DNA of 64,000 nucleotides, from contig JAEUJQ010000092.1 in the NCBI GenBank assembly GCA_016793095.1, forward strand, positions 1 to 64,000. Direction: 5' to 3'. The position numbers and the translations under genes are program-made. The notes below the pieces were generated by a model. The model saw only the letters and a list, made by a program, of their open reading frames with translations. It did not search any database and was not told where the DNA came from. The number at the start of each line of letters is the position of its first letter. Within the stretch, counting starts at the first letter, position 1. The DNA comes from Myxococcaceae bacterium. Lineage in GTDB: Bacteria > Myxococcota > Myxococcia > Myxococcales > Myxococcaceae. Below, in pieces: positions 17,592 through 22,383 of the stretch.

Positions 17592-19103
17592 ATGCCTGCC
17601 ACCGCCCTCATCGTCGATGACGAGAAGAACATCCTCCTCACCCTGAACCAGGCTCTGCAGCTCGAGGGCTACAGGACCGAGCTCGCGTCGGGTGGCCAGC
17701 TCGCACTCGATGTCATCGCCAACAAGCCGGTGGACGTGGTGCTGATGGACGTGAAGATGCCCGACCTCGACGGGCTCGCGGCGCTCGAGAAGATCAAGGC
17801 GCTGCGCCCCACCCTGCCGGTCATCATGATGAGCGGCCACGGCACCATCGAGACGGCGGTGAAGGCTACGCACCTGGGCGCACGGGACTTCCTCGAGAAG
17901 CCGATCTCGCGCGACCGGTTGCTGCTCGCGCTGCGCAACGCGCTCGAGCTGTCGCGGGTGGTGGAGGAGCTGAACGAGCTGAAGGCCGAGGGCGGGCGCT
18001 TCGACATGCTCGGCCAGAGCGCGGCGATGCAGCGCATCTACCAGGTGATCCAACGGGCGGCGCCGTCCGAGGGGCGGGTGCTGATCACCGGCGAGAACGG
18101 CTCGGGCAAGGAGCTGATCGCCCGCGCCATTCACCAGCAGTCGAAGCGGCGCGCGAAGCCGTTCGTGAAGCTCAACTGCGCCGCGGTGCCGCACGAGCTG
18201 ATCGAGTCGGAGCTGTTCGGCCACGAGAAGGGCGCGTTCACCGGGGCGCTCGCGGCGCGGCGGGGCAAGTTCGAGCTCGCGCACGAGGGCACGCTCTTCC
18301 TCGACGAGGTGGGCGACATGCCGCCGGCGATGCAGGCGAAGCTGCTTCGCGTGCTGCAGGAGGGCGAGCTCGAGCGCGTCGGCGGCAGCGAGACGATCAG
18401 GGTGGACGTGCGCGTCATCGCCGCGACCAACAAGGACCTCGAGCACGAGATCGCGCACGGGAAGTTCCGCGAAGATCTCTACTTCCGCCTGAACGTGGTG
18501 CAGCTGAACTCGCCGCCGCTGCGGGACAGGAAGGACGACCTGCCGGTGCTCATCGACGCCTTCCTCGAAGAGTCCTGCCGCAAGAACGGCCGCAAGGTGC
18601 TGCGGGTCGCGCCCGACGCGCTCGCTCGCATGATGGAGCACGACTACCCGGGCAACGTGCGCGAGCTGCGCAACCTGGTCGAGCGCCTGGCGATCCTCTG
18701 CGAGGGGCCGCTGGTGACGCTGACCGACGTCGACGCCATGTGGCCAAGGCGCCGGGCGCAGGTCAGCGCGCCGCCAACCGAAGCGGTCGTGACGGCGTCT
18801 GCGTCGTCGACACCCGTGGTGACGAGCGCGCCCATGAACCTGCCCGTACCCGCGAGCCCGCCGCCGCCGCCGGTCCCAGTGATGCGCTTCCGGCCCGACA
18901 AGCCGTTCCGCGATCAGGTCGAGGAGGCCGAGCGCGAGATCATCCTCGGGGCGCTCTCGTTCACGAAGGACAACGCGACCGAGGCGGCACGGCTGCTCGA
19001 TCTCGAGCGCGGGCACTTCTACAAGAAGATGAAGTCGCTCGGGCTGCGGCGGGCCGGCGGCGAGACGACCACGGCCGAGGCGAACGAGGCTGGGCGTCCC
19101 TGA
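17592..19103 (+). CDS. NtrC-family sigma-54 response regulator
   Basis: 503 aa. The receiver domain (1-125) has acidic pocket DDE, phosphoacceptor Asp53 (LMDVKMPD) and Lys103. The AAA+ domain (about 135-370) carries Walker A GENGSGKE (167-174) and an intact GAFTGA loop (214-219) for contacting sigma-54, then LFLDEVGDM. A long Ala/Pro/Ser linker (about 385-440) leads to a Fis-type helix-turn-helix (ATEAARLLDLERGHFYKKM). It should activate sigma-54 promoters on phosphorylation. No histidine kinase is adjacent, so the partner is elsewhere. The ATG at 17592 begins the family-typical MPATALIVDDEK. Confidence 0.95.
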   Translation: MPATALIVDDEKNILLTLNQALQLEGYRTELASGGQLALDVIANKPVDVVLMDVKMPDLDGLAALEKIKALRPTLPVIMMSGHGTIETAVKATHLGARDFLEKPISRDRLLLALRNALELSRVVEELNELKAEGGRFDMLGQSAAMQRIYQVIQRAAPSEGRVLITGENGSGKELIARAIHQQSKRRAKPFVKLNCAAVPHELIESELFGHEKGAFTGALAARRGKFELAHEGTLFLDEVGDMPPAMQAKLLRVLQEGELERVGGSETIRVDVRVIAATNKDLEHEIAHGKFREDLYFRLNVVQLNSPPLRDRKDDLPVLIDAFLEESCRKNGRKVLRVAPDALARMMEHDYPGNVRELRNLVERLAILCEGPLVTLTDVDAMWPRRRAQVSAPPTEAVVTASASSTPVVTSAPMNLPVPASPPPPPVPVMRFRPDKPFRDQVEEAEREIILGALSFTKDNATEAARLLDLERGHFYKKMKSLGLRRAGGETTTAEANEAGRP

Positions 19104-19158
19104 GCTGCGCAGCGCCCGCAGGTTGTCTCCCCAGCCACCCCCGTGCCACGGTCCAGCC

Positions 19159-20325
19159 ATGCTCAGAGCGGTCGTCTCTCTCATCTGTCTCGCGTCGCTG
19201 GGTTGTCGGCAACAGGTCTGCACGCCTGGAACGTCGGTGGCGTGCGTCGGGCCTGGTGGCTGCATGGGAGGGCAACGCTGTTCTGCGACTGGTGAGGCAT
19301 ACGAGGCGTGCGACTGCGGAACGGGCGGAGGCAGCGCGGCGGGTGGGAGTGCGGCGGGTGGGAGTGCGGCGGGTGGGAGTGCGGCGGGTGGGAATGCGGC
19401 AGGTGGGAATGCGGCGGGTGGCAGCGCGGCGGGTGGCAGCGCGGCGGGTGGGAGTGCGGCGGGTGGCAACGCGGCGGGTGGCAGCGCGGATGGTGGAACG
19501 ACAAACCCGTGCAGTGCGCTCACCCAGACAGGCTGCGCGGGAAGTCAGCGATGCCTCTTCAACCTGGACGACGGGGGCGCGTCCTGTGTTCCGCCCGGCA
19601 GCACTCCCCTGGGAGGAGCCTGTGGAGCTGACGGCGGTGATTCCTGCTCAGGGGCGAACGTCTGCCTGGGTGGTGCGTGTCGGCAGCTCTGTGAGGCTGC
19701 CACCGGGTGCGCGCAGAACGAGTTCTGCGATTTCGCAGATCGTCCGCTCGGCGTCTGCGAACCCTCGTGCAATCCCGTCTCCCAGGTTCGGCTGACTGAC
19801 GGGGCAGCGAGCTGCGGCGCGACGATCCTGACGCCCCAGCCCAACCGCGGCTGCTACGCCAGGGGCACGGTGGATGGGGGCGCCATCTTCGGTTGCGCGC
19901 CAGCAGGCATGGGTGGGCATGGCGTGCGAGCACAGTCGTTCGGGAATACCCCGTTCACCAACGGCTGCGCACCAGGCTTCCTGCCGATCTTCCCTGAGCC
20001 GGATGGCGGCCCGCGAGTCCTCTGTGCCGCGACGTGCACTGCCAAGCCCACGAGCGTTGCTTCATCGCAGGATGCTGGCGGTGTCGCTCCGTTCTCGTGC
20101 GCTGTGCGGGGTGCGGTGATGGCCGAATGCCGCTATTTCAGGTGGGTCGGTGGCGCCACCAGCGAGCCGTGGGGCGTGTGCTTCGACTATCGGGAGTACA
20201 GGTGGGACCACGACCGCAACGTGTCAACCCCCGACGTGCCGGTCCCGAGCTGTACGACACTGACCACAGCGCCGAGCGCCGACGGCGGAGCATCTCAGGC
20301 CTCAATCTGGGGCTGCGTCCCCTGA
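19159..20325 (+). CDS. Lipoprotein with AGGS stalk and Cys-rich domain
   Basis: 388 aa. A lipoprotein signal (MLRAVVSLICLASLGC) and a short Cys-rich segment (CTPGTSVACVGPGGCMGG) are followed by a repeat stalk of about 58 residues. A Cys-rich C-terminal domain follows with about 20 cysteines (CSALTQTGCAGSQRC, CDFADRPLGVC). This is the general form of myxobacterial adhesin-like or binding lipoproteins. No catalytic motif is seen. It sits between the NtrC-type regulator and the convergent AhpD-like gene. The start was chosen for the signal peptide; an in-frame ATG at 19123 adds only a non-hydrophobic leader. Confidence 0.75.
   Translation: MLRAVVSLICLASLGCRQQVCTPGTSVACVGPGGCMGGQRCSATGEAYEACDCGTGGGSAAGGSAAGGSAAGGSAAGGNAAGGNAAGGSAAGGSAAGGSAAGGNAAGGSADGGTTNPCSALTQTGCAGSQRCLFNLDDGGASCVPPGSTPLGGACGADGGDSCSGANVCLGGACRQLCEAATGCAQNEFCDFADRPLGVCEPSCNPVSQVRLTDGAASCGATILTPQPNRGCYARGTVDGGAIFGCAPAGMGGHGVRAQSFGNTPFTNGCAPGFLPIFPEPDGGPRVLCAATCTAKPTSVASSQDAGGVAPFSCAVRGAVMAECRYFRWVGGATSEPWGVCFDYREYRWDHDRNVSTPDVPVPSCTTLTTAPSADGGASQASIWGCVP
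19321..19497 (+). repeat. 15-bp tandem repeat encoding (GGSAA/GGNAA)n
   Basis: About twelve units of gcggcgggtgggagt type with Ser or Asn in the variable position. It encodes the flexible stalk of the lipoprotein. Confidence 0.92.
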
Positions 20326-20413
20326 GGCAGTACTCAGCCTTCTGGTTCCGCTCCGACACAATGAAGTCGTTCGGACTGCGACCAGCCGCTCCGACCGTCG
20401 CACCCGCACCTGA

Positions 20414-21370
20414 TCAGCCGCCCCACCGCGCCTCGTAGACGGCGTCGAGCCCAATCAGCGCCGCCGACATCGCACCAACGATGGTGAGCTCGTAGATCGC
20501 CTCGTCGCCGAACCCGGCGGTGCGCAGGCCGGCGACGTCGTCGTCGGTCATCCTGTAGGCGGCCGTCGCCAGCTTCGACAGGAACGGCTGGAGCGCCTCG
20601 GGAACCACCCCCGCCCCGGGTCGGGTCACCCCCCACTTCTGGGCGACGAAGGCGTCGACGGCGCGGCGCAGGTCGGGGCTGGTCACGCCCGGCGCAGAGA
20701 GCAGCCGGAGCCGGCCCGCCTCCGCCTCCTCAGGCCGCCTGACGCCGTCGGCGCCCACGACGAAGGGAACGCGGGCCGGCGCACCCTTCACGAACCGGCT
20801 CGCCAGGTTGAGGGCCTTCGCGAGTTTCACGAGCGCGGCGCCCTTCGGCCGCTCGAAGTCGAAGGCATCGGCGACACGGTTGATGAGGTTGTAGTGGAAG
20901 CCGACGTTCATCAACCCACGGAGCGCCGTGTCATCGATCCCCGCGCCCTGCACCGCGCGCACGAGCTCGGGGCTCACCTCGCGAGGCCGCAGCGTCGCCA
21001 CCTCGAGCAGGCTGAGCGCGGCACGCGTACGCTCTGGCACCGGCGCGGTCTTCCAGTCGGCCAGCACCGCGTCGACGGTGGCCTGCGGCAGGTTGAGCGC
21101 CGCGACCGCGGCGTGGGAGTCGATTCAGAAGCGACAACTGTTGAGGTGCGAGACGAAGGCGCTGAACAGCTCGGCGTGCCCCTTGTCCCAGCCGTCGAGC
21201 CCGCTGGAGCCACGGAAGATGTAGCCCACCAGGCGGCGCGAGAAGAGATCGGGGCGGTACGTGATGGCCAGCGGCGGCCCCGGGTACAGGCCGATGCGCG
21301 CCTTCATCAGGCGCAGGCCGAGCGAGAAGTACCAGGGCCGACGACCTCCCTCGAACAGGTTCACGCGCAT
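20414..21370 (-). CDS. AhpD-like peroxidase-related selenoprotein with in-frame UGA (Sec82)
   Basis: 319 codons read as one frame with a single TGA at 21125-21127 as residue 82. The context is E67-x11-C79-x2-[TGA]82-x3-H86, the AhpD catalytic motif E-x11-C-x2-C-x3-H with the resolving Cys replaced by UGA (HLNSCRF-U-IDSHAAVAALN). Sequence on both sides is typical carboxymuconolactone decarboxylase/AhpD: GHAELFSAFVS before, then DWKTAPVPERTRAALSLLE and NLINRVADAFDFERP after. A second, shorter CMD-like domain occupies about 225-318. The ATG at 21370 is preceded by ggag. A GGUC-loop hairpin lies 12 nt after the UGA. Reading it as two truncated genes or a nonsense pseudogene is possible but explains less. 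It would reduce peroxides with the CxxU redox pair. Confidence 0.85.
21099..21112 (-). promoter_or_regulatory. Candidate bacterial SECIS hairpin
   Basis: On the coding strand the sequence after the UGA reads, beginning at +13, GCCGC-GGUC-GCGGC: five perfect GC/CG pairs closing a GGUC tetraloop at +18 to +21. The E. coli fdhF SECIS has the same GGUC loop at almost the same distance from its UGA, where loop G and U contact SelB. No bulged U is evident in the stem. It lies within coding sequence, as bacterial SECIS elements do. Confidence 0.7.
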
Positions 21371-21828
21371 ACGGACTCCCTTACCTCACCCCCGCTCGAC
21401 GGCCTCTCCGTCGCGTCCAGCCGGTCGCGCCATGGTCCTGCTGGGGCCCTGGGGCTCCTGGCTGCCTCCAGCACGAGGGAGCGCGCGGCGCGGACCTGAC
21501 ATCGATCTCGCGGGTCGCCGATCTGCCGACAGGATTGGCCGACCCCGCGAGCCCGTCGCCGATCAGCCGGTTCAGCGTGATCCAGAACGGGTACGGCCAG
21601 CCGCCGATCGCGAAGTGGCCCGAGTTCGCTGCTGCCAGAGGGGCGCGAGTGGCTGCAGCGTCGACTGCGAGGCCTGGCGTCAGCCCCTCAGCATGGTGCG
21701 CCTCGGCGCGCCGAACGACCTTGAGCCGTGCTGAGTGCGGCCGGTCGGAGGCGCCTGGTGCTCGGTGATCTTCTCGCGAGAGACGGGGCTCGTCGTCGCG
21801 ACGCAGCACTTCTGTCAGGACTGACGCC
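21371..21828. other. 458-bp region without a convincing gene
   Basis: Open frames exist on both strands but show no recognisable start, codon bias or motif. The AhpD-like promoter should lie at the left edge (ggtgaggtaagggagtccgt precedes the ATG). A segment near 21540-21640 has fewer stops and could be the trace of a lost gene; nothing supports a specific call. Confidence 0.5.
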
Positions 21829-22383
21829 TCACACCCGCCGGCTCTCGATCATGAGCGCGCGTTCCTCCGCCTCGACGAACTCCGCGCCCAGCACCGACAT
21901 CACCACGCGGAAGGGCGCGGTCCGGCGCTCGGCGAAGACGCGCGTCTCGTGCGCGGCGATGAGCGCAGCCGCGTCGAGCGGGTAGCCGTAGACGCCGGTG
22001 CTGATGGCCGGAAACGCGAGGCTCGACAGCCCCAGCCGCTCGGCCTCGGCGAAGCAGGCGCGGTAGCAGCACGCCAGCGTCTCGGGCTCACCCTGCCCGC
22101 CTCCGAACCAGATCGGCCCCACCGTGTGCAGCACGTACTTCTGCGGCAACAGGAAGCCGCTGGTGACGCGCACCTCGCCGGGTGGACACCGCACTCCCGG
22201 CTCGACCTCGGGGAACTGCTGGCAGGCCGCGTACAGCTCGGGGCCCGCCGCGCGGTGGATCGCGCCGTCGACGCCGCCGCCCCCCGCCAGCGGAGCGTTC
22301 GCCGCGTTCACGATCGCATCCACGTCAAGCCCGACGATGGAGGCCTCGACCACCTCCACCGTCGTCGCGCGCCAGATCAGCAA
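21829..22383 (-). CDS. Macrodomain protein (O-acetyl-ADP-ribose deacetylase-like)
   Basis: 184 aa single macrodomain of MacroD/YmdB type. It shows the adenine/ribose-binding Asn and Gly loop (DAIVNAANAPLAGGGGVDGA), the catalytic-loop region IHRAAGPEL, VLHTVGPIW and the diphosphate loop FPAISTGVYGYP. Such enzymes remove ADP-ribose from glutamate/aspartate or deacetylate O-acetyl-ADP-ribose in the cytosol. The start ATG at 22383 lies 7 bp after the stop of the large upstream gene, so the two are probably co-transcribed. No NAD-dependent ADP-ribosyltransferase or sirtuin is adjacent. Confidence 0.93.
   Translation of the reverse strand: MLIWRATTVEVVEASIVGLDVDAIVNAANAPLAGGGGVDGAIHRAAGPELYAACQQFPEVEPGVRCPPGEVRVTSGFLLPQKYVLHTVGPIWFGGGQGEPETLACCYRACFAEAERLGLSSLAFPAISTGVYGYPLDAAALIAAHETRVFAERRTAPFRVVMSVLGAEFVEAEERALMIESRRV

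Follow-up and report, generated by a model that had tools for sequence, protein, structure and literature searches.

The DNA analyzed here, referred to as the window, is the whole stretch of 64,000 nucleotides taken from contig JAEUJQ010000092.1 of a Myxococcaceae bacterium. Its minus strand harbors a gene of 318 codons plus stop (20414..21370), which runs from an ATG start codon at 21370-21368 to a TGA stop codon at 20416-20414. A possible ribosome binding site (AAGGGAG, 21376..21382, minus strand), read from sequence alone, lies 5 nt ahead of the ATG. The extent of the gene rests on a translation with TGA as selenocysteine (Sec), a codon check and the full-length homologues L049-L051. The single stop codon inside the gene is a TGA at codon 82 (21125..21127, minus strand), and 236 of the 318 codons lie downstream of it. 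The list of open reading frames splits the gene in two, an 81 aa frame starting from the ATG and a 217 aa frame starting from a GTG. A plus-strand frame over the same place is also open; the homology found belongs to the minus strand.

Codon 82 takes the place of the second Cys of a CxxC motif. The AhpD motif E-x11-C-x2-C-x3-H is present with Sec for one Cys, and consists of Glu67 (21170..21172) and His86 (21113..21115), which are the AhpD relay positions, and of Cys79 (21134..21136), the partner of Sec82 (all minus strand). In alignment A1 (18 rows) Cys79 and His86 are invariant and Glu67 is nearly so. Residues 1-193 (20792..21370, minus strand) form an N-terminal AhpD-like (Sesn-A-like) domain, which reaches 72.2 bits on TIGR01926 (cut-off 81.8) and in the predicted model takes the AhpD fold, with Z up to 16.0 (6k40, 179 residues, 2.9 Å); the best AhpD structure rows align it from residue 1 to residues 182-186. 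Residues 216-318 (20417..20725, minus strand; model pLDDT 96.2) form a C-terminal, Cys-less AhpD-like (Sesn-C-like) domain; most relatives encode it in a gene of its own, located upstream.

A first-pass annotation had described a frame that is continuous save for the TGA at residue 82 and goes on for 236 codons, the positions E67, C79, [U]82 and H86, and two truncated genes as the outcome of ordinary gene calling. All of this held, the positions by codon check and the two genes as the 81 aa and 217 aa frames. The annotation did not give the strand, which is minus, and missed that the last third of the protein is a second, Cys-less AhpD-like domain.

Conservation of the UGA codon and selenocysteine machinery

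To be decoded as Sec, a UGA codon needs dedicated machinery, and all of its genes were found in the host genome (8.8 Mb, 93 contigs). A tRNA-Sec was detected with 70.3 bits, above the Rfam cut-off, and its anticodon is UCA according to ARAGORN. selA (559.5 bits), selB (324.1 bits) and selD (380.3 bits) each scored above their cut-offs.

Subsequently, the codon at the column of residue 82 was compared between homologues. A search of 195 genomes of the same phylum with the window protein gave matches in 39 at E 1e-10; 31 loci were fetched, one of them from a separate search, and 30 span residue 82, window included. The column holds TGA in 29 of these 30 loci and TGC in L032. One locus, L026, starts at a contig edge, and only 14 codons are visible ahead of its UGA. 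In seven rows of the search a second stop codon fell within the match; since these matches run to about query residue 217-231, the stop was taken as the gene end, and the respective proteins end at 201 to 226 residues. A second set was obtained by an alignment-based contig scan and consists of the 80 top-ranking named loci among 123; a scan with the single protein confirmed nothing. Four of the 80 are contigs already in the same-phylum set. Here the column holds TGA in 68 loci and a Cys codon in 12. As one of the two patterns used for the named loci requires a Cys codon at the column, the Cys share is possibly inflated. One distant relative among them, L065 of Ktedonobacter robiniae, carries an extra in-frame TAA 43 codons ahead of the UGA, within its AhpD domain. 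A second copy in the same organism, L112, lacks the extra TAA, and L065 may be a decaying paralogue or an error.

A profile search of the 195 same-phylum genomes matched 57 at E 1e-15. Fifty of them have a match with one TGA, eight have a match without a stop, and one genome has both kinds. selA is present in all 50 genomes with a TGA match, in six of the seven Cys-only genomes and in 150 of the 195 overall (Fisher p 2.9e-7, uncorrected for kinship). For those profile matches that were not fetched as loci, this count takes a TGA anywhere in the match. Among 16 genomes picked outside the phylum search, selA was present in nine of ten with UGA and in three of six with Cys; the UGA genome showing no selA, that of L068, may be an incomplete draft.

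The checks named by the first-pass annotation thus came out as follows: Sec machinery is present (tRNA-Sec/selC, selA, selB and selD), the column in homologues holds UGA or Cys and nothing else, and none of the 30 same-phylum loci has another nonsense codon before the gene end. The chain obtained by read-through also models well (pLDDT 92.7, pTM 0.92). With the machinery, the UGA/Cys column and the hairpin covariation described below, it is very likely that UGA 82 encodes selenocysteine; the incorporation itself is inferred, as no protein, RNA or 75Se data are at hand.

Two further observations were made. L028-L048, apart from L032, constitute another and larger set of AhpD-like UGA genes in the same phylum that have no partner gene, and the sole member scanned, L036, scored 110 bits on TIGR01926, above its cut-off. 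L019 (G000:C85:2741-2854) covers only about 40 residues, which share 67.5-71% identity with residues 111-152 of the window protein; the rest of the gene is absent.

A covarying SECIS-like hairpin follows the UGA codon

Downstream of the UGA codon lies a bacterial SECIS-like hairpin with a 6-pair stem and a GGUC loop (21098..21113, minus strand), separated from the codon by 11 nt. For its analysis 97 UGA loci were reduced to 78 distinct rows of 36 nt in a gap-free alignment. In this alignment the stem keeps its distance of 11 nt to the UGA codon; 98.1% of its 468 cells are paired, and all six pairs are formed in 72 of the 78 rows. Changes on both sides of a pair were found at four of the six stem pairs (31 such cells). 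None of 500 shuffles reached the same pairing and covariation score, and slid versions of the stem gave at most 11 cells. The loop contains GU in 77 of 78 rows (GGUC in 65, AGUU in 12 and GACC in one), and its outer letters are G-C in 66 rows and A-U in 12, never unpaired. The one UGA row without the loop GU, L126, also lacks half of the stem. When both strands of the window were scanned for this geometry with a GU loop, 16 of 127920 positions fitted. Taken alone, the folding energy of the window hairpin was no better than that of shuffled sequences (z -0.13 and 0.52).

All six stem pairs are kept in five of 13 Cys rows, and the hairpin is therefore no clean separator of Sec and Cys forms. These five (L057, L063, L066, L071 and L094) are all labeled Mycobacterium, and their SECIS-like stem carries a GGUC loop. 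The stems may be a relic of past Sec use. The Mycobacterium Cys group stands beside Sec forms in one tree, its placement is unresolved in another, and the genome of L057 has selA.

The second domain is a separate partner gene in most relatives

In L020, L021, L022, L023, L024 and L027, parts of residues 216-314 have their counterpart in another gene, and the overlap between this gene and the start of the selenogene is 1 or 4 nt. A partner profile was built from nine seeds, the C-domains of the window and L049-L051 and the partner genes of L020-L023 and L027. The seed loci match this profile by construction, and so do L083, L106 and L116, whose contigs are identical to those of three seed loci. 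In 73 of the 80 named loci a partner gene lies on the same strand, ends before the column and starts within 800 nt upstream of it. The partner is fused behind the enzyme domain in four loci (L049, L050, L051 and L127) and lies about 1.1 kb upstream in L067. It was not found in two of the 80, L094, in which the N-terminal part looks degraded, and L121, which is at a contig edge. No separate partner was found for L028-L048; here the profile matches only the end of the AhpD domain itself, and nothing in L032.

The fused selenoform comprises the window and three Chloroflexota, and a fused Cys lineage exists as well. Three more fused Cys proteins, L179, L181 and L184, were found in genomes of the phylum of L049. 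In 400 sampled genomes of that phylum, a full-chain UGA match at E 1e-25 was obtained only in G195, the genome of L049 itself.

A wider conserved neighborhood was sought among the 25 largest clusters, and none was found beyond the pair of enzyme and partner. The pair is the largest cluster (84 loci, gene strand), a cluster of 78 loci is the opposite strand of the same place, and the remaining clusters hold at most 20 loci each, mostly from one clade, e.g. Gemmatimonadota. Pfam gave only weak, scattered matches on the 34 rows of alignment A5, with CMD in five (best E 0.0044). Neither the window C-domain nor the partner of L020 matched above any Pfam or NCBIfam cut-off, so no family model was found for either.

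Relationships and inferred history of the gene

The window protein groups with L049-L051 (by label two Anaerolineae and one Chloroflexi) with support of 1.0 and 100 in two trees. It is 47-49% identical to these proteins and, in the same kind of alignment, 29-35% identical to the split genes of its own genus. The fused Cys lineage was placed beside a split Arthrobacter gene (SH-aLRT 99), yet the AU test does not reject a single fused clade (p 0.354). Two independent fusions are for this reason not claimed.

The contig looks native, since a neighboring gene of 613 aa is found across genomes of the genus, 82-84% identical in four and 57% identical in two. Three fetched congeners lack the window segment from 19.08 kb to about 22.3 kb (19080-22300) and have 82 bp (L165), 71 bp (L167) or about 0.96 kb (L166) in its place, which indicates that the segment with the selenogene was gained here or lost there. 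As the nearest relatives are in Chloroflexota, we infer that a horizontal gain of the segment is the likelier of the two. The segment also holds an ORF at 19123-20325 (plus strand) with Gly-Gly-Ser/Asn-Ala-Ala repeats and most of a gene at 21829-22383 (minus strand), which we take to encode a macro-domain protein.

The predicted fold resembles human Sestrin2

The full chain was modeled with AlphaFold2 on 14 alignment rows. With VIA-align, residues 11-318 of the model were superposed on residues 66-478 of human Sestrin2 (5t0n) with Z 26.1 and 2.4 Å over 263 residues; single AhpD chains reached a Z of 16.0 or less against the full model. Foldseek listed AhpD chains first (E 1.2e-4) and gave Sestrin2 an E of 1.6e-3, with a TM of 0.64 by query and an rmsd of 13.5 Å. 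For the C-domain modeled by itself, both programs returned AhpD chains (Z up to 10.8) without any Sestrin, an absence that is not evidence. No match was obtained in a viral fold library at E 0.001.

Like the window protein, human Sestrin2 (PDB 5T0N, 5DJ4, 5CUF) is one chain with a redox AhpD-like domain first and a Cys-less AhpD-like domain second. The modeled C-domain has no helix between residues 244 and 261, where the N-domain equivalents are the helices 80-91, which starts at the CxxU, and 96-105; this equivalence was judged from helix order and not from superposed coordinates. In Sestrin2 the helix-turn-helix of the C-domain is likewise replaced by a loop, and a comparable helix change was described for the Sesn-C domain (PMC4674687; PMC11429811). 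Cys125, Tyr127, Leu128, His132 and His113 of Sestrin2 (PMC4674687) are each numbered 46 above C79, F81, U82, H86 and E67 of the window protein. The two proteins differ in that Sec82 stands against Leu128, Phe81 against Tyr127 and Glu67 against His113, with an overall identity of 11-12%. The acidic DDYDY-like hinge that defines Sestrins in PMC11429811 is also lacking, residues 245-260 of the window protein being KWGVTRPGAGVVPEAL.

Sequence comparisons did not detect a Sestrin. Pfam PA26 (PF04636) did not match the window protein up to E 10 and matched nothing in the genome at E 0.1. Three of the 14 members of alignment A4, the one-domain proteins L028, L033 and L036, matched PA26 weakly, below cut-off. 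Searches of PDB sequences with profiles A4, A5 and A6 returned no Sestrin but mainly AhpD-like chains and a few unrelated ones, with A5 also matching designed helical proteins. On the basis of the model, the window protein is predicted to have the architecture of a Sestrin without being one, as it shows neither an acidic hinge nor a PA26 score.

A conserved Arg-Glu pair in the second domain

To find the best-kept residues of the partner family, 82 partners and C-domains were compared after removal of L033 and L035, whose matches lie inside the enzyme domain; A5 consists of 34 of the 82. Arg235 (20666..20668, minus strand) is present in 80 of 82 with two gaps, and Glu294 (20489..20491, minus strand) in 81 of 82 with one His. 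They are the only residues invariant in A5. Sestrin2 was reported to bind leucine through R390 and E451 (PMC11429811), and an apo-locked Sestrin2 bears E451Q, R390A and W444E (PMC12136191). The spacing of R235 and E294 is 59 and that of R390 and E451 is 61. At position 287, seven before Glu294, 62 of 82 have Y, H or F; in Sestrin2, W444 is seven before E451. Some plain AhpD domains likewise have an acidic residue at the Glu position (E in 6k40 and 2oyo). A Sestrin-like pocket in the C-domain, compared by spacing only, is for this reason a possible lead by analogy rather than a test, and any ligand is inferred.

Discussion

AhpD-like selenoproteins with a CxxU motif have been in print since the Sargasso Sea study of 2005 (PMC1088965), followed in 2008 by 'AhpD-like 1' and 'AhpD-like 2' from GOS (PMC2398784), and a 2026 review lists an 'AhpD-like protein, TIGR01926, CxxU' (PMC13188914). 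The CxxU AhpD-like selenoprotein put forward in the first-pass annotation is thus supported but as a type already published, and the peroxidase activity it assumed stays inferred. The published proteins resemble the window protein in the CxxU motif and in having Cys homologues, and for the 2005 families stem-loops downstream of the UGA were reported. The window protein differs from them in its fused Cys-less second domain, which is not mentioned in the sections bearing on them. Its scores reach none of the curated cut-offs of the listed Pfam and NCBIfam families; in addition to TIGR01926, NF041238 AhpD_rel_CFYUT (23.4 bits, cut-off 175) and NF053654 GroundWater_YciW (29.8 bits, cut-off 310) match its AhpD-like domain weakly. 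In R. eutropha YP_296737.1, Glu74, Cys86, Tyr88, Cys89 and His93 are each numbered 7 above E67, C79, F81, U82 and H86 (PMC4674687).

Two-domain prokaryotic analogues of Sestrins were recently described, namely YciW, a Rokubacteria CMD protein and proteins of Corynebacterium ureicelerivorans and Comamonas aquatica (PMC11429811). Like the window protein they have two AhpD-like domains per chain, and in two of them one domain is Cys-less. In the Corynebacterium and Comamonas proteins this domain is N-terminal, whereas it is C-terminal in the window protein, as in Sestrin. The section on these analogues does not mention selenocysteine, which is inferred for the CxxU of the window protein. AhpD is not mentioned in the deep-Sep paper, and a link between the Sestrin architecture and a bacterial selenoprotein was not found in the open-licence PMC literature searched. 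What was not found in print is the Cys-less second half, fused or separate, with its Sestrin-like predicted packing; the CxxU AhpD-like part is of a known type.

Conservation of the UGA, the Sec machinery, the covarying hairpin, the domain make-up, the gene partnership and the predicted fold were shown by computation. Together they make it very likely that the locus is a working selenogene with read-through at Sec82, a fused Cys-less domain and a predicted Sestrin-like packing; Sec insertion, redox activity, substrate and the role of the second domain are inferred. In the proposed mechanism, SelB and tRNA-Sec would decode UGA 82 as selenocysteine, aided by the hairpin just downstream, giving a single chain of 318 residues with C79-R-F-U82 as the redox pair of the AhpD-like domain. 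The last 103 residues are the Cys-less AhpD-like domain, for which most relatives have their own gene upstream and which is fused here, and the two domains are predicted to pack like the two halves of Sestrin. Sec82 and Cys79 may reduce a hydroperoxide, or the disulfide of a partner protein, via a selenenylsulfide, and the second domain may stabilize the enzyme or bind a ligand. An antioxidant role of the protein is likely, its activity being inferred.

The strongest rival concerns the Sestrin reading and not the selenocysteine. It holds that the protein is an ordinary AhpD-like selenoprotein whose likeness to Sestrin is merely the likeness of an AhpD dimer, with no ligand and no special tie to Sesn-C. 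In its favor, Sestrin2 overlaps with the dimer of YP_296737.1 (PMC4674687), an AhpD dimer fused in silico is at an RMSD of 3.2 from SESN2 (PMC11429811), sequence searches find no Sestrin, PA26 does not match the window protein, and Foldseek places AhpD chains above Sestrin2, whose alignment has the rmsd of 13.5 Å given above. Against it, the partner stands beside the selenogene across phyla (73 of 80) with its Arg and Glu almost invariant, and the full-chain VIA-align match to Sestrin2 (Z 26.1, 263 residues, 2.4 Å) far exceeds the values of at most 16.0 for single AhpD chains. Because the partner domain remains so conserved after the loss of its redox helices, it is unlikely to be a mere remnant. 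The evidence does not tip clearly to either side, and this rival may well prove correct.

A second rival, which we consider very unlikely, is that the two ORFs are separate products with the UGA as a regulated stop, or that an amino acid other than Sec is inserted at the UGA. A possible start for the 217 aa ORF is a GTG located 57 nt past the UGA codon; however, residues 83-101, which this ORF does not cover, align with those of homologues and include invariant positions (H86, A88, A90), and the gene itself ends in TGA, which therefore serves as a stop here. That a Cys-type gene merely suffered a nonsense mutation at this codon, or that the UGA is a sequencing error in such a gene, is all but excluded: Cys homologues do exist (12 of 80 named loci), but the column holds UGA in 29 of the 30 same-phylum and 68 of the 80 named loci, the machinery is present and the window gene has no other stop.

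Beyond the preferred reading of a working, fused selenogene, a bolder one can be formulated, which at present we regard as unlikely. It would see a bacterial Sestrin-like module, in which a seleno- or Cys-AhpD enzyme is joined by a Cys-less subunit whose almost invariant Arg-Glu pair binds a small zwitterionic ligand, e.g. an amino acid, so that peroxide reduction would be tied to the nutrient state. Eukaryotic Sestrins, which have a leucine pocket, would then have descended from the architecture of the fused form or have re-invented it.

Sestrins connect oxidative stress and leucine to mTORC1. They were proposed in a 2024 review to stem from two fused AhpD-like proteins, a step that was called a gap in understanding, and the prokaryotic analogues differ from them in that the C-domain helix is not deleted and no acidic hinge stands in its place (PMC11429811). 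In the window protein the redox domain precedes the Cys-less domain and the helix is missing in the model, but there is no acidic hinge. With this architecture and a conserved, separable second subunit the origin of Sestrins becomes testable, and bacterial proteins are available for asking what the second domain binds. The gene is split by gene callers that treat the UGA as a stop, and this may be one reason why it is easily missed.
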